A stretch of DNA of 64,000 bases, from contig CM069456.1 in assembly GCA_035610835.1 (NCBI GenBank), positions 33,463,359 through 33,527,358 on the forward strand, given 5' to 3'. Shown here one piece after another: positions 5,070 to 64,000 of the stretch (position 1 is the first letter of the stretch; every line of letters starts with the position of its first letter). Position numbers and translations under genes: made by a program. The notes beneath the pieces are model-generated. The model searched no databases and was not told the origin of the DNA. It worked only from the letters and a program-made list of their open reading frames with translations. The stretch is from Ophiura sarsii. Its lineage: Eukaryota > Echinodermata > Ophiuroidea > Amphilepidida > Ophiuridae.

Positions 5070-5198
5070 AGGTGCGTTCATACTCGCGTCGTTGCGTATC
5101 GGTCGACGTCGACGGACAAAAGTTGACATTGCTTCAACTCGCGCACCGATATCCGTCGACGTCGGCCGATGCGCAACGACGTGAGTATGAACGCACCT
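5070..5198. mobile_element. 129 bp MITE with 33 bp terminal inverted repeats, TTA target duplication
   Basis: The left end AGGTGCGTTCATACTCGCGT is mirrored by ACGTGAGTATGAACGCACCT at the right end. TTA flanks both sides (5067-5069 and 5199-5201). Units B and C have the empty site CGTCTTACTATC. A 3 bp TTA duplication suits the PIF/Harbinger or ISL2EU group, which is an inference from the duplication length only. Confidence 0.75.
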
Positions 5199-14085: not shown

Positions 14086-15154
14086 GCGAGGAGTTTTCGA
14101 TAAACTTGGAACATTTATGCCCTTCTGAAATAGCTAGCCGAACCTTTACTGTCATTTTGATGTGTTTTTGACCATAATATGAACGAAAAGTAAAGAAATG
14201 AAATGTTGAAATATTAAAGGTGATATTAGTCTGGGTTAAGAATACCCGTTGGACAAGTTTAAAACTGTCAAGCTTTCGTCAGCAATGGCTCTGACTTCAT
14301 CAGGACCAAATTATAATAATATTATATTAAGCAAAACAGAGATTGCCACTTCTCAATTAAAATCATCATTTGGGATGCCCCTTCCTGATGATTTGAGAGT
14401 GCATGTAGGAGCCGCATCCCTACTTGTGAACGATTGGTGGGTCTGAAAAGAGCAGTTCAGATGGACTGCCATTGTTCACTGAACAAAGATAGTGGCTATG
14501 AAAAGAGCTCTAAACGTAGGTTGCCGCTAGCCTACTATAATTTTGGCTCTAATATAACCTATTCCAAAGGATCGCCCCTGACCAATAGAAATAACATGTT
14601 ATAAGTCATCTATCGATACTTTGTAATGAAATGTCATGGCTTAGGACGCTTATATAATTCAGTATATTGATATAAAATCTTTTACCTATTACCTGCAACA
14701 TTTGAAGTATACACAAAGTAAATATACATTAAGAATGCGCTGTTTGTCAATTAATTCCTGATGTGATCCTTGTTGTAGGGAACATCTTAAATTATCTATC
14801 GATATTTTTAAATAACCTTTACTTAGTGTAATATAATTTGTTGGCCAATTGGGCATGCTGAGGCAACTGCTGGGAGCAATCAATCGCAATAAACCCGATG
14901 GTGTTGATTGCATTACGAGACAACCTGTTTCACCAATTTAGTACGTTTGTTATATCGAAATCGAAACTACATGTCACGCAGTTGTGCAGTTAAATGGTGT
15001 TGACAAGACAATGTCATTCTGGGCAGTATAACATCATAACACGCTTCAATTTAAAATGTGCATTTTTCATAACGGTTCGTTGGTAGCAAACAGGGAAATC
15101 AGAAAGTAGCTATAGTTAGTAACATAATTCCCAACTGGTAAACATCATTAACTA

Positions 15155-32513: not shown

Positions 32514-33454
32514 TATTAAACGTGATATTAGTCTGGGTTAAGAGTTTAACGGGTATGCCGTTGGACAAGTTTAAAACTGTCAAGTTTTCGTCAACATTAG
32601 CTCTGACTTCATCAGGACCAAATTATTATAATATTAAGCAAAACAGAGATTGCCACTTCGTAATTAAAATCATCATTTGGGATGCCCCTTTCCTGATGAA
32701 TTGAGAGTGCATGTATGTGCCGCATCCCTACTTGTATACGATTGGTGGGTCTGAAAAGAGCAGTTCAGATGGAATGCCCCTTGTCCACTGAACAAAGATG
32801 GTGGCTCTGTAAAGAGCTCTAAACGTAGGTTACCGCTAGCCTACTATAACTTTGGCTCTAATATAACCTATTCCAAAGGACGCCCCAGACCAATGGAAAT
32901 AACAAGTTATTAGTCATCTATCGATACTTTGTAATGAAATGTCATGTTTTAGGACGCTTATGTATTTCAGTATATTGATATAAAATCTTTTACCTATTAC
33001 CTGCAACATTTCAAGTATACACAAAGTAAATATACATTAAGAATGCACTGTTTGTCAATTCATTCCTGATGTGATCCTTGTTATATGTAGGGAACATCTT
33101 AAATTATCTATCGATATTTTTAAATAACCTTCACTTAGTGTAATATAATTTGTAGGTCAATTGGGCTGCTGAGGCAACCGCTGGGAGCAATCAATCGCAA
33201 TAAACCGATGGTGTTGATTGCATTACGAGACAACCTGTTTCATCAATTTAGTACGTTTGTTATATCGAAATTGAAACTACATGTCACACAGTTAAATGGT
33301 GTTGACAAGACAATGTCATTCTGGGCAGTATAACATCATAACACGCTTCAATTTAAGATGTGCATTTTTCATAACGGTTCTTTGGTAGCAAACAGGGAAA
33401 TCAGAAAGTAGCTATAGTTAGCAATATAATTCCCAACTGGTAAACATCATGAAC

Positions 33455-47539: not shown

Positions 47540-48081
47540 GCGGATTTGTGAAAAAGATGTTCACTTTTGGAAGGAAGCATGAAAATTGGCACATAGGGGT
47601 ATTTTGATGCGCTGATTTCAAAAAATCACGGAACCACATTTTTTGAGCAATGGTGCGGCGGCCATCTTGAATTTCAAAATGGCCGCCATAAAAATATAGG
47701 AGATTTAGTAAAATTGCTCTAAATCAAATACTTTTGAGATTCATACCCCCAGATTTCACCAATATGTTCTCTATAACATGGTGCACAATTTCAGATGGAT
47801 TTGCTGTGCCGGTTGTACTTTGGTTATTACTTGTTACCATGGAAACCATCAAAAATAGACATTTTTGGGCAAAAATGTCTCTAAAATCACTCTTATTTGG
47901 AGATTTTTGATATCTATTCATCATGATATTGCTTTTAGTATCATCTGCAATTATACATAATATGGATGAAAAATTTGGAGTGGTATCCATGGAAACTTTT
48001 TAAATGGCGGTTTGACGAAATATATGTCAAAATCACTTCTTTTTCAACCATTTTCACCAATCAATTGCTGGTAAAACACTA
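47540..48081 (+). repeat. Repeat flanking the composite element, left side
   Basis: From 47692 (ATAAAAATATAGGAGATTTA) the sequence matches 62618-62790 almost exactly, including ACTTGTTACCATGGAAACCA. Preceding it are ATGGCCGCC and GCGGCCATCTTGAA words. The composite retroelement begins at 48082 inside this repeat family. Confidence 0.75.
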
Positions 48082-48478
48082 GTTATAGAAAATGTGGTGG
48101 GGTTAAGACGCAACCTGAAATCTAAATCTAGGAATTCTAAGGATGATAATAATAATCTGATAATTTTGGTCCGATATATTTCGGCCCGTGGGGTTATAAT
48201 GGGAATGTAATACGAGAATTACGTTGTTGGAAGGATATCGGAAGTGTTATATTATTTGGAGTTACGGTGGCTCTGAAAATTTTGTATGTGATGGTATTGC
48301 GGACGTGAGAGAGAAATTCTCATTAGGTGAGATTTTATCGTAATTTTGAAGGGGGAAATATGATGTTTTTGTGGTAGAATGGTAATAATGGCGGGTTTAT
48401 GGCGGGAATTTGTAAGGTGAAATTTTAGCGTAATTTTGTTGGGAGGATATTGGGAGTGTTTTATATTTGGAGTTTGGT

Positions 48479-48493
48479 GGCTCTGAAAGAGCC
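48479..48493 (-). terminator. Histone-type stem-loop, short-loop variant
   Basis: Minus-strand GGCTCTTTCAGAGCC followed by ACC. It has a 6 bp stem with one T fewer in the loop than the canonical 16-mer. Confidence 0.6.
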
Positions 48494-48734
48494 GTTGGGA
48501 ATGTGTTGGATTATTAGGAGTGTTTTATTTTTAAAGATGGTTTGTCGTTTTGGTGGCAAATATATTGCCGAGGATAAATATTTTTGGATGGATGTGAGTG
48601 GGTTATAAGTGTATTATATCCATTTTAAGAATATAATTTGGAGTTTTAAATAGGGCGGATATGTAGGTATTAGTTAAGAGGGAGAATATAAAGTTTTGTG
48701 TACCAGGCATATTACTCTTTTTGGAAGGTAGGGT

Positions 48735-48750
48735 GGCTCTGAAAAGAGCC
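48735..48750 (-). terminator. Canonical histone mRNA 3' stem-loop after ORF2 (left arm)
   Basis: Minus-strand GGCTCTTTTCAGAGCC preceded by CCAAC and followed by ACCCTACC. It starts 31 nt after the ORF2 stop (48782-48784). AAAAAGAG lies about 11-18 nt downstream, where histone pre-mRNAs carry the U7-binding element. Confidence 0.85.
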
Positions 48751-48781
48751 GTTGGTGCTGCAATAGCGGGTTTATGTTGAA

Positions 48782-49952
48782 TCAATTTCGTCGAACCTCG
48801 TTGCGGTCTTGTCTACTACGTTGATACCTTGAAGACTGGAGAGATGGGCCCGGATAGTGTCGCATGAGTGGTGGTGGACGCCGGTCATCTCTGGGAGCTG
48901 GATAGCTTTCTGCTGTCTTCCTTTTCCTACTAGTAGTCTTGTTCCTCCAGAGTTGGTTTCTTGTTGACGCCTTGAGCTTGATTTCTTTTTCCAATGTAGA
49001 TTTGGCCATAGTCAGTTCCTTGGGTGGGCACTCAGCTTCTAATCTTCTCCTGGCTTTCTTTTCCGCTTCGTGGCAGTCTGCTTGGCATGCGGGGATGGTT
49101 TTAGTGATTAAATCATCTCTGAGGCGAGTGATGATTTGTCTATCCATGCTTTTGTCCATGTTGCCTATCTCGACTTGGGCAACTATGGAGAAGTGGTAAT
49201 CACCGGATAGGACGGGAAGCTTACGGTTTGTCCGTAGCTCTGTGGGGATTTCTGTTTTGCCGTCCAGCATGTTTTGGAAGTTCGTTTGCCTGGACTCTAA
49301 ACTGGCAAGATTTGTGTAATTTCTTTCCACCATTCTCAAAAGGCCTAAAATAAAATCTGAAGTGACTGTTGATAAAATCGGAGTTGGTGGTTTGACATCG
49401 GCGCTCGATTGACCGGGTTGAATAATTTGGGAGTCAGATACGGGGCTGTCAGCATAAGGGTGATCAGAATCTGAATCATATCTCGACTTGGGCAACTATG
49501 GAGAAGTGGTAATCACCGGATAGGACGGGAAGCTTACGGTTTGTCCGTAGCTCTGTGGGGATTTCTGTTTTGCCGTCCAGCATGTTTTGGAAGTTCGTTT
49601 GCCTGGACTCTAAACTGGCAAGATTTGTGTAATTTCTTTCCACCATTCTCAAAAGGCCTAAAATAAAATCTGAAGTGACTGTTGATAAAATCGGAGTTGG
49701 TGGTTTGACATCGGCGCTCGATTGACCGGGTTGAATAATTTGGGAGTCAGATACGGGGCTGTCAGCATAAGGGTGATCAGAATCTGAATCATGACCTTTG
49801 CCGGGGGATGGGATGGGTGATGATGGTACCGGGCTCGACGGCGGTGTAGACGTGTAGGAACTGGTTGGTGAATTCGGGCGTGTGTCTGGAGCTGGATGTT
49901 GCTTGCGGCTTTTGATGCTGAGTTTGTTGAGCTGCTTGGTTAGTTGAGGCAT
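48782..49952 (-). pseudogene. Second ORF, left arm, broken by a 313 bp tandem duplication
   Basis: Same gene as 59754-60611, but the segment 49168-49480 is repeated at 49481-49793. As 313 is not a multiple of three, the frame breaks. The N-terminal part is open to about 49476, and a second frame resumes to the normal C-terminus at 48782. The duplication junction is exact (GAATCAT joined to ATCTCGACTT). The product could not be full length, so this arm depends on the other copy for this protein, if it is needed. Confidence 0.85.
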
Positions 49953-50004
49953 GATGCGTGTGGTGTCGTTGGAAGTTACACTAATAGTGATTTACTTCGG
50001 TGGG

Positions 50005-50165
50005 TTTACGGGGTATTTATGATGTTTGTGAGTAATATGCCTGGGTGGGATATCTACGTGTGTAGACTTGCGGTTTATTGTGATTGGTCAGTGAAGTAGA
50101 GGTGTTCATTGGCTGGGGGCTCGGTCCAATGATATGCTAGGCTTTCATAGCCAATCAGGAGGTAG
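50005..50165 (-). promoter_or_regulatory. Histone-like promoter of the left second ORF
   Basis: Mirror of 59544-59700. Four CCAAT boxes appear as ATTGG/CCAAT near 50083, 50108, 50126 and 50151, and the TATA-like ATAAATA reads on the minus strand at 50014-50020. It lies just upstream of the start codon at 49952. Confidence 0.6.
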
Positions 50166-50329
50166 TCTGGTTTTGGTGTAGCGGGTGTGATAGAAATTCA
50201 CATTAGGTGAAATTTTATCGTAATTTTGAAAGGGAAATATAATGTTTTTGTGGTGGATTGGTAATAATGGTGGGTTTATGGCGGGAATTTGTAAGGTGAA
50301 ATTTTAGCGTAATTTTGTTGGGAGGATAT

Positions 50330-50700
50330 TGGGAGTGCTTTTTGTTTGGAGTTTGGTGGCTCTGAAAGAGCCGTTGTTGGAATTTTGTTTAATTATTGGA
50401 AGTGCTTTATTTTTAAAGCTGGGAGGATATTGGGAGTGCTTTTTGTTTGGAGTTTGGTGGCTCTGAAAGAGCCGTTGTTGGAATTTTGTTTAATTATTGG
50501 AAGTGCTTTATTTTTAAAGCCGGGAGGATATTGGAAGTGTTTTGTATTTGGAGTTATGGTGGTATTGAATAGAGCCGTTGTTGGAATTTTGTTTAATTAT
50601 TGGGAGTGCTTTATTTTTAACAAAGCCGGGAGGATATTGGGGTGTTTTATTGTTTGGAGTTTTGGTGGCACTGAAAAGAGCCGTTGGAATTGTGTAAAAA
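50330..50700 (-). repeat. Tandem stem-loop modules, left arm
   Basis: Mirror of 59010-59380. Stem-loop cores lie at 50358-50372, 50459-50473, 50561-50576 (degenerate) and 50667-50682 (minus strand), at about 100 bp spacing. Confidence 0.8.
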
Positions 50701-51292
50701 TAATAGGAGTGTAATATTTTAAGTGGTCCGAGTATTTTTGTGGCAAATATAGTGCCGGGGATAGGTATTTGGGATGGATGTAAATAGGTTGTAGTTTAGG
50801 ATGTACTTCACGGGGTTGTGTCTGTTATAGGGTGGATATAAACCTACTAAATAAGATCCGGGATAGTAGAATAGTATTAAATAAAGCGGGGAACGGGAAA
50901 ATAGATGGGAATATATGAACAGTTTGCAAATGGTGAGAATATATGAACAGTTTGCAAGTGGTGAGATAAAAGTATATTGTGGGGCACGTGCTCGTGTGAT
51001 AAGAACATGAAAAGGGGGGTTTGTATTTGTGGGAGGTTTTAGAGAAACCTAGTATTAAGGTTATGGTAAGGTGAGCAGTGAGCTGGCGAGACCATAGTTT
51101 CTGGGTCGCTCAAACCCTTCTTTCAGCCGCCTCAGGATATTTTCAGTTTATTCAACTTTAGTGCTCGGGGTGGGGTGGAAAGGTTAACTTTCCTATACAT
51201 AGTACTTCTGATATTAGTTGTACTATGGTCTTAAAAATAAGACAAAGAGAGATTGTCGTTCTTTAACAAATGGCATTATTAGAAGTTAGGGT

Positions 51293-51308
51293 GGCTCTGA
51301 AAAATGCC
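51293..51308 (-). terminator. Degenerate histone-type stem-loop after the left reverse transcriptase
   Basis: Minus-strand GGCATTTTTCAGAGCC followed by ACCC, 114 nt after the stop codon. One stem pair is lost compared with the canonical 16-mer. Confidence 0.6.
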
Positions 51309-51421
51309 GCGTGGAAACATACATTTAGTTGTCTATTTGTAGAAGTTAAAATATATGTTTTGTAGTATGTTTATAGAAAAAAGATGATGATGTCGGGTAC
51401 TAATTCAATTGTTTTAGTATA

Positions 51422-53530
51422 TTAGTTATCCGCATCATTATTTTCTATATTTTGGGATAGGGGTTCGGGGGAGTTGTTGTTATACTGTTCATAACTGAGG
51501 GTATAGAAGTCATTGAAACCTCTGCTCTCTGTTTCTAAGTCTTGTAGCATTAGAAGTGTGGGAGAGCCAGAGCGTGGGTTATTTGGTACCGTTTCAATGT
51601 CGGAATCTTCCACGTGGGCTAGTTTAGCTCTGACTAAGGAGTCATTAAGATTCTTAGCTCGGCTGTATGCTATGATAGGGATTTCTGGGAAGATTTTCTT
51701 GAGGGTGGGGTCTTCTGAGACGATATCCCAGTGTTTGGTTAGGGCATTTTTAATGTGTTTGCTGGAGATATGAGGATAATACTGGGTTTTAAATACTAGC
51801 GGGATTGTATTGCTATGTATTTTTTCTGTGATATAGTCGGGTCTATTCTTGAAATCAACGCCTTTTACGGCTGAATCGATTTCACGGTGGGTGTAACCTC
51901 TTTCTAAGAGTTTACTGATGAATACGCTCTTTTTATCTTCGTAGGTTTCGGGGTTATTAGAATTTCTGATGTATCTAATGAGTTCACCTCGAATGAAACC
52001 TTGGAAGACGTTCGGGCTGTGGCAAGACGATCTCTCTAAGTAACAAAATGTTTCTGTGGGTTTTGTGAAACATTTTATATCTAGGATATTCGATTGTTCA
52101 AATCTTTCTCCTTTGTAGATAATAAGGTCAAGGAATTGGATTTCTTGGTGGGATGCTGTATATGTGAATTTGATGGTGTCGTGTATTTCATTAATCTCAT
52201 TAATGAATTGTTTCAACTCATCCATGGTGCCTTCCCATGCTAGGAAACTATCATCCATGTATAAGTAGAGGGATTTGATGCGGGGTTCTATTTCATGAAT
52301 ATGTTCCATGAGTTTATTTACTACGAGGCAACTGATACTTGGGCTTGATCTCAAACCCATAGGAGTACCGGATATTTGGAGGAAGTGTCTACCGTTGAAA
52401 TCGAATGCATTGCGGTAGAGTACTAGCTTGAGTAATTGACTCATATAGCTTAGTTTCGGGAGGGGCGGGATACATGATTGTCTTTCGAGGCTAGCCAAAA
52501 CTTCCATGGCTGCCACATATGCTTCATGTTGTGGGACTGAGGTGAACATGCTTATAATGTCTATACTTGCTAAGATGATATGGCGGGGGAGTTTAAGTTT
52601 TTCGATTTTTCTAATCGTGTCAGCGGTGTCTTTAAGGTAGAGCGGAGATTTCTTTACAAAAGGAAGGAGATATTTGTCTAAGAATTCTGAAATTCTATTT
52701 AATGGGCTGCTGACTGATGATACTACGGGTCGGCCTACAAATGTGGTACCTTGTGGCGGTGTTTTATGTACCTTTGGGAGCATGAAGAATACGGGTGTAT
52801 CCTTTTCTAGATTGATATAAGGGTTTAGGTAGTTGGAGAGGGCTTTATCTATATCTTTAGACAAGTACATTGCATGTATTACCTCGTGGATCATTGCTGT
52901 AGTGTCGGGGGTCATGTCATAATCTAATTCTAGATATGATTTGGGATTGTTCAGTTGCCTGTAGCCTTCCGATATATAGTCGGTAGTGGACATAATACAT
53001 ATGCCTCTCCCTTTATCATATCTTTTGAGAACGATGTCGGGATTGTTTTTGAGGGATTTTATGGCTTTTAATTCTGCTTTGGACATATTTGGTTGGGCAC
53101 GGGATTTAATAGGAACTTTGTCAAGTTCTATTTTGATGGCTTCGAGATAGTCTTCCAGAGCGTTGTTGATAGTGGGGCCGGGGTTCCATGTTGATGGATT
53201 TCTAAAACTATGTCTAGATTTCCAGTTTTTAGTGGATGCGTAGTATCTTATCCTCATACTTCTTGCAAGGGTGTTAGCTGCGAAGATAAGGGATCGTTTA
53301 GTAGGTTTATAGGGGGTCGGGATGAAGTTTAGACCTTTGCCTAGTGCCAGGATTTCGTTGTCGGATAGTTTGTAGTTGGAGAGGTTCATGAGGAATTTGC
53401 TAGCTTTGGAGACTAGATCTAGTTTAATATTAGATCTATTGGTGGTTCTTTGTTTAAGTTTGGACTTTCTGTGCCATTTTTTAATGTGTTTATTTTTCGG
53501 GTGGTTGGGTTGTCTATATGTTCTTGCCAT
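51422..53530 (-). CDS. Penelope-like reverse transcriptase, endonuclease-less (left copy)
   Basis: 702 residues, identical in translation to 56176-58284. It copies RNA into DNA for retrotransposition. Visible blocks: basic N-terminus (residues 1-30, several K/R), LGKGLNFIPTP (about 63-73, typical of Penelope-like proteins), PKVHK (about 252), GRPVVSSVSSPLNR (about 266), motif A IDIISMFTSVP (about 323), motif B GTPMGLRSSPS (about 388), and motif C YMDDSF (about 424) with the catalytic aspartates. The C-terminus ends in an acidic, Asn-rich tail with no GIY-YIG endonuclease or Cys-rich linker. The start is the first ATG of the frame. The leader of this copy is cut at 53814, so the CCAAT/TATA region is missing and expression is doubtful. 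Confidence 0.9.
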   Translation of the reverse strand: MARTYRQPNHPKNKHIKKWHRKSKLKQRTTNRSNIKLDLVSKASKFLMNLSNYKLSDNEILALGKGLNFIPTPYKPTKRSLIFAANTLARSMRIRYYASTKNWKSRHSFRNPSTWNPGPTINNALEDYLEAIKIELDKVPIKSRAQPNMSKAELKAIKSLKNNPDIVLKRYDKGRGICIMSTTDYISEGYRQLNNPKSYLELDYDMTPDTTAMIHEVIHAMYLSKDIDKALSNYLNPYINLEKDTPVFFMLPKVHKTPPQGTTFVGRPVVSSVSSPLNRISEFLDKYLLPFVKKSPLYLKDTADTIRKIEKLKLPRHIILASIDIISMFTSVPQHEAYVAAMEVLASLERQSCIPPLPKLSYMSQLLKLVLYRNAFDFNGRHFLQISGTPMGLRSSPSISCLVVNKLMEHIHEIEPRIKSLYLYMDDSFLAWEGTMDELKQFINEINEIHDTIKFTYTASHQEIQFLDLIIYKGERFEQSNILDIKCFTKPTETFCYLERSSCHSPNVFQGFIRGELIRYIRNSNNPETYEDKKSVFISKLLERGYTHREIDSAVKGVDFKNRPDYITEKIHSNTIPLVFKTQYYPHISSKHIKNALTKHWDIVSEDPTLKKIFPEIPIIAYSRAKNLNDSLVRAKLAHVEDSDIETVPNNPRSGSPTLLMLQDLETESRGFNDFYTLSYEQYNNNSPEPLSQNIENNDADN

Positions 53531-53674
53531 GCTTATAGTAATATAGTTGATGTATTATCACTCTAATATACTAATTTGTTTAGGCATTAAGGTGGGATGG
53601 CCACTGTATTCGTGGTATGGGTGTATATGGGAGTATGGGAGAAATTAAAAAATGTGTCACAGATCTCTTGTGGT

Positions 53675-53690
53675 GGCTCTGAAAAGAGCC
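53675..53690 (-). terminator. Canonical histone-type stem-loop in the leader of the left reverse transcriptase
   Basis: Minus-strand GGCTCTTTTCAGAGCC followed by ACCACAAGAGATC. It lies 144 nt upstream of the reverse-transcriptase start codon, so processing here would separate a leader from the coding sequence. Confidence 0.8.
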
Positions 53691-53814
53691 GTTGAAAATG
53701 TGTGCTAAAAAATACGCCGGTATTTCTTATGTGTTGCTGGAATAACTGGACTGGGTGATTCTGCTGGAAGCTAGCTGTTGGGCAGGGTCCTTGTGTATGC
53801 GTGTGGATGCTGGA

Positions 53815-54525
53815 GTTATAGAAAATGTGGTGGGGTTAAGACGCAACCTGAAATCTAAATCTAGGAATTCTAAGGATGATAATAATAATCTGATAATTTT
53901 GGTCCGATATATTTCGGCCCGTGGGGTTATAATGGGAATGTAATACGAGAATTACGTTGTTGGAAGGATATCGGAAGTGTTATATTATTTGGAGTTACGG
54001 TGGCTCTGAAAATTTTGTATGTGATGGTATTGCGGACGTGAGAGAGAAATTCTCATTAGGTGAGATTTTATCGTAATTTTGAAGGGGGAAATATGATGTT
54101 TTTGTGGTAGAATGGTAATAATGGCGGGTTTATGGCGGGAATTTGTAAGGTGAAATTTTAGCGTAATTTTGTTGGGAGGATATTGGGAGTGTTTTATATT
54201 TGGAGTTTGGTGGCTCTGAAAGAGCCGTTGGGAATGTGTTGGATTATTAGGAGTGTTTTATTTTTAAAGATGGTTTGTCGTTTTGGTGGCAAATATATTG
54301 CCGAGGATAAATATTTTTGGATGGATGTGAGTGGGTTATAAGTGTATTATATCCATTTTAAGAATATAATTTGGAGTTTTAAATAGGGCGGATATGTAGG
54401 TATTAGTTAAGAGGGAGAATATAAAGTTTTGTGTACCAGGCATATTACTCTTTTTGGAAGGTAGGGTGGCTCTGAAAAGAGCCGTTGGTGCTGCAATAGC
54501 GGGTTTATGTTGAATCAATTTCGTC
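53815..54525 (-). repeat. Terminal segment T, copy 2
   Basis: Same 711 bp as copy 1, same orientation. It joins the truncated leader at GCTGGAG/TTATAG and contains stem-loops at 54212-54226 and 54468-54483 (minus strand). Confidence 0.8.
54468..54483 (-). terminator. Canonical histone-type stem-loop in T copy 2
   Basis: Minus-strand GGCTCTTTTCAGAGCC plus ACCC, identical to the loop after ORF2. Confidence 0.75.
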
Positions 54526-54569
54526 TATGGCCAAATCTACATTGGACTATGGCCAAATCTACATTGGAA
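54526..54569. repeat. Symmetry centre of the inverted repeat with a 22 bp direct duplication
   Basis: TATGGCCAAATCTACATTGG plus AC (54526-54547) is immediately repeated from 54548, where it runs on into the ORF2 fragment. To the left, T copy 2 ends abruptly at GTC. The duplication marks the junction between the two opposed elements. Confidence 0.75.
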
Positions 54570-54776
54570 AAAGAAATCAAGCTCAAGGCGTCAACAAGAA
54601 ACCAACTCTGGAGGAACAAGACTACTAGTAGGAAAAGGAAGACAGCAGAAAGCTATCCAGCTCCCAGAGATGACCGGCGTCCACCACCACTCATGCGACA
54701 CTATCCGGGCCCATCTCTCCAGTCTTCAAGGTATCAACGTAGTAGACAAGACCGCAACGAGGTTCGACGAAATTGA
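54548..54776 (+). pseudogene. C-terminal fragment of the second ORF at the centre
   Basis: Encodes only the last 74 or so residues of the 285-residue protein, beginning MAKSTLEKEIKLKAS and ending NEVRRN plus stop. It is a 5'-truncated copy retaining its T segment, the expected product of incomplete reverse transcription. Confidence 0.85.
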
Positions 54777-55476
54777 TTCAACATAAACCCGCTATTGCAG
54801 CACCAACGGCTCTTTTCAGAGCCACCCTACCTTCCAAAAAGAGTAATATGCCTGGTACACAAAACTTTATATTCTCCCTCTTAACTAATACCTACATATC
54901 CGCCCTATTTAAAACTCCAAATTATATTCTTAAAATGGATATAATACACTTATAACCCACTCACATCCATCCAAAAATATTTATCCTCGGCAATATATTT
55001 GCCACCAAAACGACAAACCATCTTTAAAAATAAAACACTCCTAATAATCCAACACATTCCCAACGGCTCTTTCAGAGCCACCAAACTCCAAATATAAAAC
55101 ACTCCCAATATCCTCCCAACAAAATTACGCTAAAATTTCACCTTACAAATTCCCGCCATAAACCCGCCATTATTACCATTCTACCACAAAAACATCATAT
55201 TTCCCCCTTCAAAATTACGATAAAATCTCACCTAATGAGAATTTCTCTCTCACGTCCGCAATACCATCACATACAAAATTTTCAGAGCCACCGTAACTCC
55301 AAATAATATAACACTTCCGATATCCTTCCAACAACGTAATTCTCGTATTACATTCCCATTATAACCCCACGGGCCGAAATATATCGGACCAAAATTATCA
55401 GATTATTATTATCATCCTTAGAATTCCTAGATTTAGATTTCAGGTTGCGTCTTAACCCCACCACATTTTCTATAAC
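54777..55476 (+). repeat. Terminal segment T, copy 3
   Basis: Follows the central ORF2 fragment and runs into the leader of the right reverse transcriptase (CTATAAC/TTTGAC). Stem-loops lie at 54808-54823 (canonical) and 55065-55079 (short loop), with a half-site at 55278-55292. Confidence 0.8.
54808..54823 (+). terminator. Canonical histone-type stem-loop in T copy 3
   Basis: GGCTCTTTTCAGAGCC, then ACCCTACC and CCAAAAAGAG downstream. Confidence 0.8.
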
Positions 55477-55712
55477 TTTGACTTTTTTTACTCTGCCTTG
55501 TAGCGGTATCTCTCAGAGATATGCAGCCATCGTTTGAGTAGGTGGCCGGCTGACGTGTAGCGTTCGTATATAGATCTGCAAAGACCTTTATGATGAATCC
55601 CTCGTTATCTATATCTTAGGTTTTCTTTCTCACCATATCAACAACCCCCTCAATACAGTTATGTATTACCAAAATAAATTCCCACAACCCCTCAAGCATC
55701 CAGAATGCACTT

Positions 55713-55860
55713 CCTCCTGATTGGTCCTTAAAGCCGAGCACGTCATTGGCTAATAATATTTCGGCAGGTTATTACCTACCATGAGAAAACCCACCAATGA
55801 AAACTCCTACTTCACTAACCAATCACAACAGACCGCACTCCAACACGACAGCATAAAAGC
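55713..55860 (+). promoter_or_regulatory. Histone-like promoter upstream of the right reverse transcriptase
   Basis: Four CCAAT boxes (ATTGG at 55720-55724 and 55745-55749; CCAAT at 55794-55798 and 55819-55823) precede the TATA-like CATAAAAG at 55852-55859. The block CTACTTCACT.ACCAATCACA is shared with the ORF2 promoter at 59544-59700, so the two derive from one ancestor. Multiple CCAAT boxes before a TATA box are usual for replication-dependent histone genes. Use here is inferred. Confidence 0.6.
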
Positions 55861-56015
55861 CGTCACTTCCACACCTAGTGCCTCACTTGTCTCCAGCATC
55901 CACACGCATACACAAGGACCCTGCCCAACAGCTAGCTTCCAGCAGAATCACCCAGTCCAGTTATTCCAGCAACACATAAGAAATACCGGCGTATTTTTTA
56001 GCACACATTTTCAAC

Positions 56016-56031
56016 GGCTCTTTTCAGAGCC
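56016..56031 (+). terminator. Canonical histone-type stem-loop between promoter and reverse-transcriptase start
   Basis: GGCTCTTTTCAGAGCC preceded by TTTTCAAC and followed by ACCACAAGAGATC. A CAAGAGA U7-site-like word lies directly after it. It lies about 160 nt after the TATA-like box and 144 nt before the ATG at 56176. The short promoter-to-loop interval has no open frame, as if a former coding sequence had been lost. Confidence 0.8.
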
Positions 56032-56175
56032 ACCACAAGAGATCTGTGACACATTTTTTAATTTCTCCCATACTCCCATATACACCCATACCACGAATAC
56101 AGTGGCCATCCCACCTTAATGCCTAAACAAATTAGTATATTAGAGTGATAATACATCAACTATATTACTATAAGC

Positions 56176-58284
56176 ATGGCAAGAACATATAGACAACCCA
56201 ACCACCCGAAAAATAAACACATTAAAAAATGGCACAGAAAGTCCAAACTTAAACAAAGAACCACCAATAGATCTAATATTAAACTAGATCTAGTCTCCAA
56301 AGCTAGCAAATTCCTCATGAACCTCTCCAACTACAAACTATCCGACAACGAAATCCTGGCACTAGGCAAAGGTCTAAACTTCATCCCGACCCCCTATAAA
56401 CCTACTAAACGATCCCTTATCTTCGCAGCTAACACCCTTGCAAGAAGTATGAGGATAAGATACTACGCATCCACTAAAAACTGGAAATCTAGACATAGTT
56501 TTAGAAATCCATCAACATGGAACCCCGGCCCCACTATCAACAACGCTCTGGAAGACTATCTCGAAGCCATCAAAATAGAACTTGACAAAGTTCCTATTAA
56601 ATCCCGTGCCCAACCAAATATGTCCAAAGCAGAATTAAAAGCCATAAAATCCCTCAAAAACAATCCCGACATCGTTCTCAAAAGATATGATAAAGGGAGA
56701 GGCATATGTATTATGTCCACTACCGACTATATATCGGAAGGCTACAGGCAACTGAACAATCCCAAATCATATCTAGAATTAGATTATGACATGACCCCCG
56801 ACACTACAGCAATGATCCACGAGGTAATACATGCAATGTACTTGTCTAAAGATATAGATAAAGCCCTCTCCAACTACCTAAACCCTTATATCAATCTAGA
56901 AAAGGATACACCCGTATTCTTCATGCTCCCAAAGGTACATAAAACACCGCCACAAGGTACCACATTTGTAGGCCGACCCGTAGTATCATCAGTCAGCAGC
57001 CCATTAAATAGAATTTCAGAATTCTTAGACAAATATCTCCTTCCTTTTGTAAAGAAATCTCCGCTCTACCTTAAAGACACCGCTGACACGATTAGAAAAA
57101 TCGAAAAACTTAAACTCCCCCGCCATATCATCTTAGCAAGTATAGACATTATAAGCATGTTCACCTCAGTCCCACAACATGAAGCATATGTGGCAGCCAT
57201 GGAAGTTTTGGCTAGCCTCGAAAGACAATCATGTATCCCGCCCCTCCCGAAACTAAGCTATATGAGTCAATTACTCAAGCTAGTACTCTACCGCAATGCA
57301 TTCGATTTCAACGGTAGACACTTCCTCCAAATATCCGGTACTCCTATGGGTTTGAGATCAAGCCCAAGTATCAGTTGCCTCGTAGTAAATAAACTCATGG
57401 AACATATTCATGAAATAGAACCCCGCATCAAATCCCTCTACTTATACATGGATGATAGTTTCCTAGCATGGGAAGGCACCATGGATGAGTTGAAACAATT
57501 CATTAATGAGATTAATGAAATACACGACACCATCAAATTCACATATACAGCATCCCACCAAGAAATCCAATTCCTTGACCTTATTATCTACAAAGGAGAA
57601 AGATTTGAACAATCGAATATCCTAGATATAAAATGTTTCACAAAACCCACAGAAACATTTTGTTACTTAGAGAGATCGTCTTGCCACAGCCCGAACGTCT
57701 TCCAAGGTTTCATTCGAGGTGAACTCATTAGATACATCAGAAATTCTAATAACCCCGAAACCTACGAAGATAAAAAGAGCGTATTCATCAGTAAACTCTT
57801 AGAAAGAGGTTACACCCACCGTGAAATCGATTCAGCCGTAAAAGGCGTTGATTTCAAGAATAGACCCGACTATATCACAGAAAAAATACATAGCAATACA
57901 ATCCCGCTAGTATTTAAAACCCAGTATTATCCTCATATCTCCAGCAAACACATTAAAAATGCCCTAACCAAACACTGGGATATCGTCTCAGAAGACCCCA
58001 CCCTCAAGAAAATCTTCCCAGAAATCCCTATCATAGCATACAGCCGAGCTAAGAATCTTAATGACTCCTTAGTCAGAGCTAAACTAGCCCACGTGGAAGA
58101 TTCCGACATTGAAACGGTACCAAATAACCCACGCTCTGGCTCTCCCACACTTCTAATGCTACAAGACTTAGAAACAGAGAGCAGAGGTTTCAATGACTTC
58201 TATACCCTCAGTTATGAACAGTATAACAACAACTCCCCCGAACCCCTATCCCAAAATATAGAAAATAATGATGCGGATAACTAA
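56176..58284 (+). CDS. Penelope-like reverse transcriptase, endonuclease-less (right copy)
   Basis: 702 residues, no stops or frameshifts. It should act with target-DNA 3' ends to reverse-transcribe the element RNA. The order matches Penelope-like enzymes: N-terminal LxxGLNFIPTP, then MLPKVHK, RPVVSS.S.PLNR, motif A D-II-SMFTSVP, motif B GTPMGLRSSPS, motif C YMDD, and a thumb-like region to PIIAYSRAKNLNDSLVRA. Usual Penelope proteins continue into a Cys-rich linker and GIY-YIG nuclease. Here about 60 polar residues follow instead. Endonuclease-lacking members (Athena, Coprina) are known and tend to use chromosome ends. This copy has the full leader and CCAAT/TATA region, so it is the better candidate for an active master. 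The ATG is the first in frame, in context AGCATGG. Confidence 0.92.
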   Translation: MARTYRQPNHPKNKHIKKWHRKSKLKQRTTNRSNIKLDLVSKASKFLMNLSNYKLSDNEILALGKGLNFIPTPYKPTKRSLIFAANTLARSMRIRYYASTKNWKSRHSFRNPSTWNPGPTINNALEDYLEAIKIELDKVPIKSRAQPNMSKAELKAIKSLKNNPDIVLKRYDKGRGICIMSTTDYISEGYRQLNNPKSYLELDYDMTPDTTAMIHEVIHAMYLSKDIDKALSNYLNPYINLEKDTPVFFMLPKVHKTPPQGTTFVGRPVVSSVSSPLNRISEFLDKYLLPFVKKSPLYLKDTADTIRKIEKLKLPRHIILASIDIISMFTSVPQHEAYVAAMEVLASLERQSCIPPLPKLSYMSQLLKLVLYRNAFDFNGRHFLQISGTPMGLRSSPSISCLVVNKLMEHIHEIEPRIKSLYLYMDDSFLAWEGTMDELKQFINEINEIHDTIKFTYTASHQEIQFLDLIIYKGERFEQSNILDIKCFTKPTETFCYLERSSCHSPNVFQGFIRGELIRYIRNSNNPETYEDKKSVFISKLLERGYTHREIDSAVKGVDFKNRPDYITEKIHSNTIPLVFKTQYYPHISSKHIKNALTKHWDIVSEDPTLKKIFPEIPIIAYSRAKNLNDSLVRAKLAHVEDSDIETVPNNPRSGSPTLLMLQDLETESRGFNDFYTLSYEQYNNNSPEPLSQNIENNDADN

Positions 58285-58397
58285 TATACTAAAACAATTG
58301 AATTAGTACCCGACATCATCATCTTTTTTCTATAAACATACTACAAAACATATATTTTAACTTCTACAAATAGACAACTAAATGTATGTTTCCACGC

Positions 58398-58413
58398 GGC
58401 ATTTTTCAGAGCC
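58398..58413 (+). terminator. Degenerate histone-type stem-loop after the right reverse transcriptase
   Basis: GGCATTTTTCAGAGCC followed by ACCCTAAC, 114 nt after the stop. The loop and 3' half are canonical, and the 5' stem has two changes giving an A-A mismatch and a U-G pair. Confidence 0.6.
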
Positions 58414-59009
58414 ACCCTAACTTCTAATAATGCCATTTGTTAAAGAACGACAATCTCTCTTTGTCTTATTTTTAAGACCATAGTACAACTAATATCAGAA
58501 GTACTATGTATAGGAAAGTTAACCTTTCCACCCCACCCCGAGCACTAAAGTTGAATAAACTGAAAATATCCTGAGGCGGCTGAAAGAAGGGTTTGAGCGA
58601 CCCAGAAACTATGGTCTCGCCAGCTCACTGCTCACCTTACCATAACCTTAATACTAGGTTTCTCTAAAACCTCCCACAAATACAAACCCCCCTTTTCATG
58701 TTCTTATCACACGAGCACGTGCCCCACAATATACTTTTATCTCACCACTTGCAAACTGTTCATATATTCTCACCATTTGCAAACTGTTCATATATTCCCA
58801 TCTATTTTCCCGTTCCCCGCTTTATTTAATACTATTCTACTATCCCGGATCTTATTTAGTAGGTTTATATCCACCCTATAACAGACACAACCCCGTGAAG
58901 TACATCCTAAACTACAACCTATTTACATCCATCCCAAATACCTATCCCCGGCACTATATTTGCCACAAAAATACTTGGACCACTTAAAATATTACACTCC
59001 TATTATTTT

Positions 59010-59380
59010 TACACAATTCCAACGGCTCTTTTCAGTGCCACCAAAACTCCAAACAATAAAACACCCCAATATCCTCCCGGCTTTGTTAAAAATAAAGCAC
59101 TCCCAATAATTAAACAAAATTCCAACAACGGCTCTATTCAATACCACCATAACTCCAAATACAAAACACTTCCAATATCCTCCCGGCTTTAAAAATAAAG
59201 CACTTCCAATAATTAAACAAAATTCCAACAACGGCTCTTTCAGAGCCACCAAACTCCAAACAAAAAGCACTCCCAATATCCTCCCAGCTTTAAAAATAAA
59301 GCACTTCCAATAATTAAACAAAATTCTAACAACGGCTCTTTCAGAGCCACCAAACTCCAAACAAAAAGCACTCCCAATAT
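59010..59380 (+). repeat. Four tandem stem-loop modules of about 100 bp
   Basis: Each module holds a histone-type stem-loop plus ACC, then AAACTCCAAACAAAAAGCAC, CCAATATCCTCCC, and TTTAAAAATAAAGCAC. Cores: 59024-59039 (GGCTCTTTTCAGTGCC), 59130-59145 (GGCTCTATTCAATACC, degenerate), 59233-59247 and 59334-59348 (GGCTCTTTCAGAGCC). The modules fill the spacer between the two genes and resemble the T segment, as if 3' ends had been added repeatedly. Confidence 0.85.
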
Positions 59381-59543
59381 CCTCCCAACAAAATTACGCT
59401 AAAATTTCACCTTACAAATTCCCGCCATAAACCCACCATTATTACCAATCCACCACAAAAACATTATATTTCCCTTTCAAAATTACGATAAAATTTCACC
59501 TAATGTGAATTTCTATCACACCCGCTACACCAAAACCAGACTA

Positions 59544-59700
59544 CCTCCTGATTGGCTATGAAAGCCTAGCATATCATTGGACCGAGCCCCCAGCCAATGA
59601 ACACCTCTACTTCACTGACCAATCACAATAAACCGCAAGTCTACACACGTAGATATCCCACCCAGGCATATTACTCACAAACATCATAAATACCCCGTAA
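59544..59700 (+). promoter_or_regulatory. Histone-like promoter of the second ORF
   Basis: CCAAT boxes at 59550-59554 and 59576-59580 (as ATTGG) and at 59594-59598 and 59619-59623 (as CCAAT), then TATA-like ATAAATA at 59686-59692. The ATG is 62 nt after this box, leaving a leader of only about 30-40 nt, the compact layout of histone genes. Confidence 0.6.
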
Positions 59701-59753
59701 ACCCACCGAAGTAAATCACTATTAGTGTAACTTCCAACGACACCACACGCATC

Positions 59754-60611
59754 ATGCCTCAACTAACCAAGCAGCTCAACAAACTCAGCATCAAAAGCCG
59801 CAAGCAACATCCAGCTCCAGACACACGCCCGAATTCACCAACCAGTTCCTACACGTCTACACCGCCGTCGAGCCCGGTACCATCATCACCCATCCCATCC
59901 CCCGGCAAAGGTCATGATTCAGATTCTGATCACCCTTATGCTGACAGCCCCGTATCTGACTCCCAAATTATTCAACCCGGTCAATCGAGCGCCGATGTCA
60001 AACCACCAACTCCGATTTTATCAACAGTCACTTCAGATTTTATTTTAGGCCTTTTGAGAATGGTGGAAAGAAATTACACAAATCTTGCCAGTTTAGAGTC
60101 CAGGCAAACGAACTTCCAAAACATGCTGGACGGCAAAACAGAAATCCCCACAGAGCTACGGACAAACCGTAAGCTTCCCGTCCTATCCGGTGATTACCAC
60201 TTCTCCATAGTTGCCCAAGTCGAGATAGGCAACATGGACAAAAGCATGGATAGACAAATCATCACTCGCCTCAGAGATGATTTAATCACTAAAACCATCC
60301 CCGCATGCCAAGCAGACTGCCACGAAGCGGAAAAGAAAGCCAGGAGAAGATTAGAAGCTGAGTGCCCACCCAAGGAACTGACTATGGCCAAATCTACATT
60401 GGAAAAAGAAATCAAGCTCAAGGCGTCAACAAGAAACCAACTCTGGAGGAACAAGACTACTAGTAGGAAAAGGAAGACAGCAGAAAGCTATCCAGCTCCC
60501 AGAGATGACCGGCGTCCACCACCACTCATGCGACACTATCCGGGCCCATCTCTCCAGTCTTCAAGGTATCAACGTAGTAGACAAGACCGCAACGAGGTTC
60601 GACGAAATTGA
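59754..60611 (+). CDS. Second ORF of the retroelement, 285 residues, function unknown
   Basis: I do not recognise a domain. Residues 20-85 are rich in Pro, Ser and Thr with an acidic patch (DSDSDHPYADSPVSDSQ). The middle (about 85-180) is predicted mostly helical, with LLRMVERNYTNLASLESRQ and DKSMDRQIITRLRDDLI. A charged helical stretch EAEKKARRRLEAE follows (about 193-205). The last 60 residues are strongly basic (RNKTTSRKRK, SRYQRSRQDRNEVRRN), suggesting nucleic-acid binding. A Gag/ORF1-like RNA-binding role is therefore an inference. The gene has its own CCAAT/TATA promoter and a canonical stem-loop 31 nt after the stop (60643-60658), so it looks like a self-contained histone-style transcription unit. 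It is the only intact copy in the window. The start is the first ATG after the TATA-like box. Confidence 0.75.
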   Translation: MPQLTKQLNKLSIKSRKQHPAPDTRPNSPTSSYTSTPPSSPVPSSPIPSPGKGHDSDSDHPYADSPVSDSQIIQPGQSSADVKPPTPILSTVTSDFILGLLRMVERNYTNLASLESRQTNFQNMLDGKTEIPTELRTNRKLPVLSGDYHFSIVAQVEIGNMDKSMDRQIITRLRDDLITKTIPACQADCHEAEKKARRRLEAECPPKELTMAKSTLEKEIKLKASTRNQLWRNKTTSRKRKTAESYPAPRDDRRPPPLMRHYPGPSLQSSRYQRSRQDRNEVRRN

Positions 60612-60642
60612 TTCAACATAAACCCGCTATTGCAGCACCAAC

Positions 60643-60658
60643 GGCTCTTTTCAGAGCC
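60643..60658 (+). terminator. Canonical histone mRNA 3' stem-loop after intact ORF2
   Basis: GGCTCTTTTCAGAGCC has a 6 bp stem and 4 nt loop identical to the animal histone consensus, with A/C-rich CCAAC before and ACCCTACC after. CCAAAAAGAG (60669-60678) matches the purine-rich histone downstream element and can pair with the CUCUUUU core of U7 snRNA. It starts 31 nt after the stop. Confidence 0.88.
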
Positions 60659-60899
60659 ACCCTACCTTCCAAAAAGAGTAATATGCCTGGTACACAAAAC
60701 TTTATATTCTCCCTCTTAACTAATACCTACATATCCGCCCTATTTAAAACTCCAAATTATATTCTTAAAATGGATATAATACACTTATAACCCACTCACA
60801 TCCATCCAAAAATATTTATCCTCGGCAATATATTTGCCACCAAAACGACAAACCATCTTTAAAAATAAAACACTCCTAATAATCCAACACATTCCCAAC

Positions 60900-60914
60900 G
60901 GCTCTTTCAGAGCC
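60900..60914 (+). terminator. Histone-type stem-loop, short-loop variant, in T copy 4
   Basis: GGCTCTTTCAGAGCC followed by ACC. The loop is one base shorter. Confidence 0.6.
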
Positions 60915-61311
60915 ACCAAACTCCAAATATAAAACACTCCCAATATCCTCCCAACAAAATTACGCTAAAATTTCACCTTACAAATTCCCGCCATAAACCC
61001 GCCATTATTACCATTCTACCACAAAAACATCATATTTCCCCCTTCAAAATTACGATAAAATCTCACCTAATGAGAATTTCTCTCTCACGTCCGCAATACC
61101 ATCACATACAAAATTTTCAGAGCCACCGTAACTCCAAATAATATAACACTTCCGATATCCTTCCAACAACGTAATTCTCGTATTACATTCCCATTATAAC
61201 CCCACGGGCCGAAATATATCGGACCAAAATTATCAGATTATTATTATCATCCTTAGAATTCCTAGATTTAGATTTCAGGTTGCGTCTTAACCCCACCACA
61301 TTTTCTATAAC

Positions 61312-61918
61312 ACCAACTCCGATTTTATCAACAGTCACTTCAGATTTTATTTTAGGCCTTTTGAGAATGGTGGAAAGAAATTACACAAATCTTGCCAGTT
61401 TAGAGTCCAGGCAAACGAACTTCCAAAACATGCTGGACGGCAAAACAGAAATCCCCACAGAGCTACGGACAAACCGTAAGCTTCCCGTCCTATCCGGTGA
61501 TTACCACTTCTCCATAGTTGCCCAAGTCGAGATAGGCAACATGGACAAAAGCATGGATAGACAAATCATCACTCGCCTCAGAGATGATTTAATCACTAAA
61601 ACCATCCCCGCATGCCAAGCAGACTGCCACGAAGCGGAAAAGAAAGCCAGGAGAAGATTAGAAGCTGAGTGCCCACCCAAGGAACTGACTATGGCCAAAT
61701 CTACATTGGAAAAAGAAATCAAGCTCAAGGCGTCAACAAGAAACCAACTCTGGAGGAACAAGACTACTAGTAGGAAAAGGAAGACAGCAGAAAGCTATCC
61801 AGCTCCCAGAGATGACCGGCGTCCACCACCACTCATGCGACACTATCCGGGCCCATCTCTCCAGTCTTCAAGGTATCAACGTAGTAGACAAGACCGCAAC
61901 GAGGTTCGACGAAATTGA
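61312..61918 (+). pseudogene. 5'-truncated second ORF in an extra tandem copy
   Basis: Begins abruptly at the codons for TPILSTVTSDF (residue about 85 of the full protein) and is then identical to the C-terminus of the intact copy. Together with T copy 5 it is a 1307 bp tandem duplication of 60004-61310. Any in-frame ATG upstream lies in T and gives only a chance N-terminus. Confidence 0.9.
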
Positions 61919-62617
61919 TTCAACATAAACCCGCTATTGCAGCACCAACGGCTCTTTTCAGAGCCACCCTACCTTCCAAAAAGAGTAATATGCCTGGTAC
62001 ACAAAACTTTATATTCTCCCTCTTAACTAATACCTACATATCCGCCCTATTTAAAACTCCAAATTATATTCTTAAAATGGATATAATACACTTATAACCC
62101 ACTCACATCCATCCAAAAATATTTATCCTCGGCAATATATTTGCCACCAAAACGACAAACCATCTTTAAAAATAAAACACTCCTAATAATCCAACACATT
62201 CCCAACGGCTCTTTCAGAGCCACCAAACTCCAAATATAAAACACTCCCAATATCCTCCCAACAAAATTACGCTAAAATTTCACCTTACAAATTCCCGCCA
62301 TAAACCCGCCATTATTACCATTCTACCACAAAAACATCATATTTCCCCCTTCAAAATTACGATAAAATCTCACCTAATGAGAATTTCTCTCTCACGTCCG
62401 CAATACCATCACATACAAAATTTTCAGAGCCACCGTAACTCCAAATAATATAACACTTCCGATATCCTTCCAACAACGTAATTCTCGTATTACATTCCCA
62501 TTATAACCCCACGGGCCGAAATATATCGGACCAAAATTATCAGATTATTATTATCATCCTTAGAATTCCTAGATTTAGATTTCAGGTTGCGTCTTAACCC
62601 CACCACATTTTCTATAA
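61919..62617 (+). repeat. Terminal segment T, copy 5, right end of the composite
   Basis: Ends TTTTCTATAA at 62617, where the flanking repeat (TAAAAATATAGGAG) begins. Stem-loops at 61950-61965 and 62207-62221. Confidence 0.85.
61950..61965 (+). terminator. Canonical histone-type stem-loop in T copy 5
   Basis: GGCTCTTTTCAGAGCC plus ACCC, the outermost perfect copy on the right. Confidence 0.8.
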
Positions 62618-62982
62618 TAAAAATATAGGAGATTTAGTAAAATTGCTCTAAATCAAATACTTTTGAGATTCATACCCCCAGATTTCACCAATATGTTCTC
62701 TATAACATGGTGCACAATTTCAGATGGATTGGTTGTGCCATTTGTACTTTGGTTATTACTTGTTACCATGGAAACCATCAAAATAGACATTTTCAAGGGA
62801 AAATACCTCTAAAATTGCTCTAAATTAACTATCTTTGAGATTTATACCCCGATATTTCATCAATATGGTCTCTATAACATGGTGCATAATTTTAGATGGG
62901 TTGGTTGTGCCAGCTGTACTTTGTTTATTACTTGTTACCATGGAAACCATCAAAAATAGACATTTTTGGGTAAAAGTATCTC
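62618..62982 (+). repeat. Two tandem copies of the flanking repeat, unit about 190 bp
   Basis: The first unit, from 62618, matches 47692-47860. The second, from about 62808, is diverged. Both contain ATGGTCTCTATAACATGGTG-like and TTATTACTTGTTACCATGGA words. A more decayed copy lies near 63700-63800. Confidence 0.7.
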
Positions 62983-63264
62983 TTAACCCTAACCCCCCTG
63001 AGTGCTAAAAAATGCTAATCCAAAGTCCCTCTTCAAACGCATGCGCCGTCGGTTTTCGATGACGTAGTCAACCGAGCCTATATAATGAGTGCAGTATACT
63101 GCACGAATGTGTAGCTGAGGGCCGTGGCTTAGTGTTAGGAAGGTGGGGCTCGAGAACGGAGGGTCCCCGGATCGAATCCCGGCAGGTTCCCGGAGATTTA
63201 GTTGATGTTTTTTCCTCGAAAATTGTGATCCCGGTCAAAAATCCTAAACCGGGGTTAAGGGTTA
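62983..63264 (+). mobile_element. tRNA-like short element with telomere-like inverted ends, copy 1
   Basis: Starts TTAACCCTAACCCCCC and ends CCGGGGTTAAGGGTTAT, an imperfect inverted repeat of the telomere-type sequence. Inside are a TATATAAT box, the palindrome GTGCAGTATACTGCAC, a pol III A box (TGGCTTAGTGTT, 63125) and a B box (GGATCGAATCC, 63169-63179). Poly-A and poly-T runs follow the end (63270-63291). Confidence 0.75.
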
Positions 63265-63300
63265 TGGTAATAAAAAAAAAAGTTTTTTTTTCGTGTTCTA

Positions 63301-63582
63301 TTAACCCTAACCCCCCTGAGTGCTAAAACATGCTAATCCAAAGTCCCTCTCCAAACGCATGCGCCGTCGGTTTTCGATGACGTAGTCAACCGAGCCTATA
63401 TAATGAGTGCAGTATACTGCACGAATGTGTAGCTGAGGGCCGTGGCTTAGTGTTAGGAAGGTGGGGCTCGAGAACGGAGGGTCCCCGGATCGAATCCCGG
63501 CAGGTTCCCGGAGATTTAGTTGTTGTTTTTTCCTCGAAAATTGTGATCCCGGTCAAAAATCCTAAACCGGGGTTAGGGTTAT
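63301..63582 (+). mobile_element. tRNA-like short element with telomere-like inverted ends, copy 2
   Basis: Almost identical to copy 1, with ends TTAACCCTAACCCC and GGGGTTAGGGTTA that are perfect inverses. The A box is at 63443-63453. The B box at 63487-63497 differs from the consensus GGTTCGANTCC at one base. CCGG-ATCGAATC-CCGG gives a T-arm-like hairpin. The whole does not fold as a convincing tRNA, so it is a tRNA-derived SINE head or a MITE that captured one. Confidence 0.8.
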
Positions 63583-64000
63583 GTCACTCTTTTAAATGGC
63601 GGCTTGGTGAACAAAAAGTCAAAATCACTCCTTTTTTCAACAATATCAAAATTTAACCACTATATTAATTTCTAAACACAACAGTTCAATATTATATTTC
63701 AGTATGGTACAAAATGCATGAAGTTGTATACAGAGCTAGTAACGGATTAATTGTGTCCGTTGTATTTACCATACTTGTTGTCATAGTAACCATCAAAATT
63801 CGATTTAAAAACAAAATTCGTTGGTTGGATGGTTCCTGTCATGACTAACAGCTCGTGACGCGCAGATAATACACCAAAGTCATCAAAAGTGTAACAATCA
63901 CGGAGAGGGAGTCCAGTAATCAATCTAAGTTGGTCAATTTATCAGGACCGAGGTCTGCTTTTTTTTCTCTTCTCTTCAATCATGCATTGCATAATAACCT
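63583..64000. other. AT-rich flank, no gene recognised
   Basis: Contains TTTTAAATGGCGGC and TCAAAATCACTCC words shared with 47998-48040, and a decayed copy of the 190 bp repeat. Nothing else was identified. Confidence 0.5.

Follow-up and report, generated by a model that had tools for sequence, protein, structure and literature searches.

Could a retroelement end one of its genes in the way that replication-dependent histone genes end? The question is raised by a 64,000-nucleotide (nt) stretch of DNA from the ophiuroid Ophiura sarsii (contig CM069456.1, positions 33,463,359 to 33,527,358; hereafter the window), in which histone-type stem-loops recur within a large insertion. Its genes mark this insertion as a Penelope-related animal retroelement, with a reverse transcriptase (RT) that has no usual nuclease and with a separate gag-like gene, ORF2. 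An earlier note on this DNA, made from its letters alone, had suggested that the element uses histone-type 3′-end formation. By sequence comparison with host genes and related elements we show that the 3′ end of the gag-like gene resembles that of the host's replication-dependent histone genes, and that this ending has been kept by selection in divergent families of the element.

The histone-type signal behind ORF2

The starting observation was that at least seven perfect copies of the 16-mer GGCTCTTTTCAGAGCC run in the sense direction of the element, each followed by ACC. The count is exactly seven in 64 kb, with 0 expected (100 shuffles); each is in the sense orientation of the element copy that holds it, and ACC follows in 7/7. 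The covariance search that the earlier note had proposed, using the Rfam histone stem-loop family RF00032, gave five matches over the cut-off of 34, at 41.4 bits each. At E ≤ 1 it gave 18 matches in positions 48000-62700, where no other Rfam family was found, and no match in positions 1-48000 of the window. Because the insertion is a mosaic of one unit, the seven 16-mers resolve into five copies of one site (site A) and two of another (site B), and they are not independent of one another (Table 1).

Site A carries the signal of interest. As had been described, it lies 31 nt past the ORF2 stop codon with a purine tract downstream: the hairpin starts at 60643, and AAAAAGAG, which resembles the histone downstream element, starts at 60671. 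The AAAGAG of AAAAAGAG begins 14 nt past the stem, and this hexamer occurs just three times in the unit when it is read in the sense direction. With its 6-bp stem, 4-nt loop and the conserved letters of a histone-type end, site A folds at -9.3 kcal/mol, and 0 of 200 shuffles folded as well. Site B, in the leader before the reverse transcriptase gene, is followed by ACC and, just 5 nt past the stem, by the purine run AAGAGA.

Eight hairpin-related sites could be aligned from one unit, and they are perfect in A and B only. The site behind the reverse transcriptase gene carries an A.A mismatch and a U.G pair; beside it, the non-perfect sites are one mismatched repeat copy, one broken site and three versions with a 3-nt loop. 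A ninth hairpin remnant near the unit end (61104-61128) does not fold. We make no claim of selection on the hairpins of the 101-nt repeats, because 13/93 windows were at least as conserved. The idea that every hairpin is active was rejected, many of them being decayed. The other hairpins of the unit are mostly decayed or without a downstream element, and the complete set of hairpin, ACC, purine element and histone spacing characterises the ORF2 gene, not every hairpin. The suggestion of a histone-type end thus holds for ORF2, which matches the layout of host histone genes, and not for each hairpin of the element.

The occurrence of about nine hairpin-related sites across the sense strand of one unit would also suit a packaging or priming signal of the element's own that merely looks histone-like and is recognised by the gag-like protein or by the reverse transcriptase. 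A precedent is the anole Penelope enzyme, which begins reverse transcription within a stem-loop of its RNA (PMC11167929). We consider such a signal quite unlikely here, since conservation extends from the hairpin to the purine element and its spacing, which match those of host H2A, H2B and H3, the distance from site A to the stop codon is histone-like, and the copies run on past the hairpin.

Comparison with the histone genes of the host

The host genome assembly (1,573,662,873 bases in 748 contigs) contains the 16-mer 4,714 times and the composite stem-loop-ACC-N4-14-AAAAGAG 1,627 times, against 0 for the reversed form of each; histone genes, elements and other repeats all contribute to the two counts. 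The pieces read upstream of composites are histone-coding in 6/7 cases (two each of H3, H2A and H2B), and the seventh, L062, holds a gag-like gene whose stop codon precedes the stem-loop by 24 nt. The host H3 has 136 amino acids and is 98.5% identical to the yardstick. H3 (L058, L059) and one H2A (L061) form long open frames in the stretch read, the two H2B pieces match from residues 40-44 onward, and the other H2A piece (L056) comprises only about the last 41 residues, its hairpin lying 28 nt past the stop of the H2A frame.

In the six host histone sequences the stem-loop lies 25-35 nt past the stop codon and AAAGAG 12-14 nt past the stem. The corresponding distances in the element are 31 and 14 nt, and ACC follows the stem-loop in both. 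The element differs from histone genes in that its protein is gag-like and in that the other hairpins of the unit are decayed or without the purine element. In mouse, an H2a processing substrate likewise has the 16-mer, ACCC and the AAAGAG core, which lies 16 nt past the stem by a count on the printed sequence (PMC7026596).

The likeness extends to the letters. The 41-nt block of site A is identical to the host sequences at 39/41 (H2A, L056), 38/41 (H2B, L057), 36/41 (H3), 34/41 (H2B, L060) and 30/41 (H2A, L061) positions. A match of 39/41 to an H2A piece is what a histone gene end captured by chance and carried passively might leave behind, and the decay of many other hairpins of the unit would fit that course as well. 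Yet the 3′ signal of the gag-like gene persists in 4/4 families sampled through their reverse transcriptase, between flanks that are near-random, and the compensatory stem changes described below largely refute passive carriage, which we regard as very improbable.

Host histone arrays were noted at C5:37.4-37.6 Mb, C3:28.48 Mb and C5:24.8 Mb; the composites on contig C3 recur at 6,375 bp, and the clusters on contig C5 contain H2A, H2B and H3 sequences. Some host H2A and H2B copies appear truncated in the stretch read.

The 16-mer also occurs apart from histone genes. In 40 other loci fetched around 16-mers on contig C1 (L009-L048) there are 55 copies, of which 43 are followed by ACC and one is part of a composite. 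An abundant repeat of about 350 bp in these loci holds the 16-mer in the context GGCAATCCATCTGAAC-stem-loop-ACCAATTCTTTCACAAGTAGGAAAGG, without AAAAGAG; a simple context rule assigns 34 of the 55 copies to it, and diverged copies lie in the window at 14439-14511 and 32747-32820 on the minus strand. A hammerhead-like core seen by eye in this repeat was discarded, as no Rfam hammerhead was found (L015 at E ≤ 5; 15 loci over the cut-off). A tandem repeat of about 325 nt (L022, L023) carries perfect histone stem-loops, four at each locus, one of which faces the opposite way from the other three. Rfam matches were obtained in L022; blastn of the window unit against these two loci gave no match.

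Conservation across element families

A search of the genome with the reverse transcriptase gave at least 64 matches, in classes of about 95-100, 71-78, 60-61, 58-59, 55-56, 40-41 and 36% identity. Seven pieces from four of these classes (73, 60, 40 and 36%) were fetched, selected blind to hairpins. In 4/4 of the families so picked, a stem-loop with ACC and AAGAG stands behind a gag-like frame. The first stem-loop lies 23, 58, 17 and 35 nt past the gag-like stop in the 73, 60, 40 and 36% families, respectively, and AAGAG lies 13-15 nt past the stem, in the 36% family counted from the latter of its two tandem stem-loops. The 60% family is identical to the window at 40/41 positions of the 41-nt block, at 13/60 and 22/60 positions of the flanks and at 26% in the gag protein; the block of the 73% family is identical at 39/41. 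By BLASTP the gag-like frames form two groups, one of the window, the 73% and the 60% family and the other of the 36% family, L048 and L062. The last two loci have the same layout but are not independent tests, as it was the hairpin that led to them.

Compensatory change in homologous elements had been named beforehand as a check, and the stems bear it out. In alignment A6 (13 stem-loops), which leaves out the degenerate post-RT, repeat and 3-nt-loop hairpins of the window, one duplicate of the 60% family and one weak match in L055, the omitted hairpins including unpaired changes, 98.7% of 78 cells pair and one cell is unpaired. Two-sided changes occur at 3/6 stem pairs, with no one-sided standard change, and the covariation score was reached by 0/500 shuffles. 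Because two row pairs in A6 are tandem duplicates, the double changes amount to about four independent events.

Could the families instead have taken functional endings repeatedly from host histone genes, so that their likeness stems from repeated capture and not from descent? The window block is about equally close to the host (30-39/41) and to the element families (29-40/41), as repeated capture would have it. But the letters CTTCC before the purine run are common to the window, 73% and 60% families, the host sequences read carry CTTCT, CTTCA, TTCCT or TATA at that spot, and the 40% and 36% families have compensated stems of their own. Repeated capture therefore appears unlikely to us.

Architecture of the insertion and its reverse transcriptase

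The boundaries of the insertion enclose a mosaic built from copies of one 5,834-nt unit (Table 1). The five copy ends read have the terminus ...CCACATTTTCTATAA in common, and copy starts vary. The insertion is surrounded by a host repeat of about 172 nt (47688-47854 on the left, 62617-62955 on the right); because the left and right flanks resemble different copies of this repeat, no clean target-site duplication is readable. The junctions read show no telomeric repeat, and the window lies at C16:33.46-33.53 Mb.

The long arms of the insertion are nearly identical, as they would be if the inverted arrangement with its many hairpins were an assembly artefact. They do, however, differ at 2/4337 positions, so the insertion is not a mirrored assembly; copies of 95-99% identity lie on other contigs, and several other families stand in evenly spaced rows. 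Head-to-head and tandem copies are, moreover, described as typical of Penelope elements in one report (PMC3846280), and the same copy organisation is described in another (PMC11167929). We find an artefact scarcely credible.

Table 1. Features of the insertion, in window coordinates
Feature	Position	Strand	Score or remark
Whole insertion, Penelope-related, head-to-head and partly tandem copies of one unit	48082..62617	.	
5,834-nt unit	55478..61311	+	
3′ terminus common to copies	61297..61311	+	ends 653 nt beyond site A
ORF2, gag-like, 285 amino acids	59754..60611	+	helical core, disordered ends, basic C-terminus
Site A, perfect histone-type stem-loop behind ORF2, then ACCC	60643..60658	+	41.4 bits
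AAAAAGAG, resembling the histone downstream element	60671..60678	+	
Site A, copy 2	54808..54823	+	
Site A, copy 3	61950..61965	+	
Site A, copy 4	54468..54483	-	
Site A, copy 5	48735..48750	-	
Site B, perfect stem-loop in the leader before the reverse transcriptase gene	56016..56031	+	33.9 bits
Site B, copy 2	53675..53690	-	
Reverse transcriptase gene, 702 amino acids	56176..58284	+	without GIY-YIG
Reverse transcriptase gene, copy 2	51422..53530	-	
Degenerate stem-loop, 113 nt past the reverse transcriptase stop	58398..58413	+	without AAGAG
Array of repeats of about 101 nt with decayed or 3-nt-loop stem-loops	58986..59387	+	
3-nt-loop stem-loop version downstream of site A	60900..60914	+	
Promoter-like module before the reverse transcriptase gene, 2 ATTGG and 2 CCAAT	55709..55837	+	pairs 25 nt apart
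Paralogous promoter-like module before ORF2, same ATTGG and CCAAT pairs	59540..59637	+	pairs 25 nt apart

The 702-residue reverse transcriptase matches RVT_1 and has 87 homologues at 23-72% identity. It is related to proteins in which RT and GIY-YIG are fused (P0039, P0040, P0047 and others carry PF01541; control E to 7e-72). The similarity to these GIY-YIG-bearing relatives stops at the thumb, and their nuclease part has no significant match in the window. In a quick tree of 72 rows, 10 of them labelled as GIY-YIG-bearing, the protein sits in a 31-row clade with no GIY-YIG annotated (Shimodaira-Hasegawa-like approximate likelihood ratio test, 99). As to telomerase-likeness, there are weak matches (E 0.04-0.11) to group II/retron-type reverse transcriptases and to telomerase alike. 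No hammerhead ribozyme was detected, either by Rfam at E ≤ 10 in 55400-61400 or by a core pattern in the unit. The genome-contig and viral-contig collections searched contained no DNA of relatives.

How does the element compare with known Penelope-like elements? With the canonical ones (Penelope/Poseidon type) it shares a homologous reverse transcriptase and the copy organisation, since partial tandem and inverted copies with a common 3′ end and varied 5′ ends are all present in the insertion. In contrast to them it has no GIY-YIG, no hammerhead by Rfam, and a separate gag-like gene with a histone-type 3′ end. Endonuclease-deficient Penelope-like elements include Athena and Coprina, and they likewise have no endonuclease in the RT protein; no telomeric repeat is seen at the junctions read of the window element. 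The endonuclease-deficient elements of protists and fungi are described as being without tandem or inverted organisation (PMC3846280), which the window element has.

The ORF2 protein and the promoter-like modules

ORF2 has three homologues (P0088, P0089 and P0090) at 46-58% identity. Its structure model shows a helical core flanked by disordered ends (mean predicted local distance difference test score 68.5), and searches gave no Pfam family and no solved relative. The possibility that ORF2 is itself a protein with an SLBP-like or histone-like domain was dropped, as no such domain appeared in the Pfam search. Upstream of each of the two genes lies a promoter-like module (Table 1); we take these dual CCAAT modules to be consistent with cell-cycle promoters, but they prove nothing.

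Other features of the window

A 318-nt direct duplication (62979-63583) includes a stretch that looks tRNA-like by eye and CCCTAACCC; ARAGORN reported no tRNA gene in it, nor was a tRNA gene found anywhere in the 64-kb window. A satellite of about 178 nt is present in 12 copies (22549-24872). A long hairpin of 100 nt (5084-5183) has a sub-threshold match to a miRNA-precursor family and is probably an inverted-repeat element.

A proposed S-phase link and its implications

We infer that the end of the ORF2 mRNA is formed via the histone pathway. SLBP would bind the loop of the ORF2 pre-mRNA, the U7 small nuclear ribonucleoprotein would pair with the purine element, and the pre-mRNA would be cut a few nt past the loop, giving a non-polyadenylated mRNA that may be translated for the most part during S phase. 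Because this ending has been preserved amid change elsewhere in the element, production of the protein is probably coupled to DNA replication. The template of reverse transcription has to be a different RNA. Because five copy ends share a terminus there, the template RNA extends at least 653 nt past the site A hairpin, and a template ending at site A was rejected, as copies run 653 nt further. The template would then be a longer RNA that escapes the cut at site A. The earlier proposal is thus retained for the ORF2 mRNA, on which the signal lies, and has to be given up for the reverse-transcribed RNA. Taken as one explanation, the histone-type ORF2 ending, an S-phase mRNA cut through SLBP and U7, and a longer template RNA account for the sequence data very probably, in our judgement.

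Several observations weigh against this explanation. As copies end 653 nt past site A, the template must escape cleavage, and polyadenylation is possible because AATAAA occurs 10 times in the unit. A search for U7 small nuclear RNA was as empty in 14 control genomes as in that of the host. In the host genome the 16-mer cannot serve as a diagnostic mark by itself, because the composite was present in only 1/55 cases on contig C1. Within the window unit the hairpins of the 101-nt repeats have decayed without compensation, and in three units read (window, 73% and 60%) the post-RT stem-loops are without AAGAG; no stem-loop was present in L053 (40% family, post-RT) or in L052 (60% family, leader). 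The family sample is drawn from the RT classes at 73, 60, 40 and 36%, and its more distant members are less alike: the 40% and 36% family blocks are only 29/41 identical to the window block, and the 40% family has AATAAGAG instead of AAAGAG. The frame of the 40% family, moreover, matches neither BLASTP group and is gag-like by place and basic tail only.

Why should such an element tie its protein to replication? One may speculate that a nuclease-less element must use the 3′ ends available at forks or breaks, and that an RNA-binding protein supplied during replication would suit an element unable to nick DNA. Extended to the whole nuclease-less Penelope-related lineage, the gag-like gene would be run like a histone gene (CCAAT-rich promoter, SLBP/U7 end), particles would be loaded in S phase, and copies primed at fork or break 3′ ends would replace the endonuclease. 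This extension is tentative, and we regard it as possible but rather doubtful.

A histone-type end on a retroelement gene is not described in the titles or abstracts among the matches listed by full-text literature searches, which mostly do not cover subscription papers. If the proposal is true, a conserved transposon gene with a histone-type ending would constitute a second class of such genes, and retrotransposons would have a direct link to S phase that could be tested in animals already studied.

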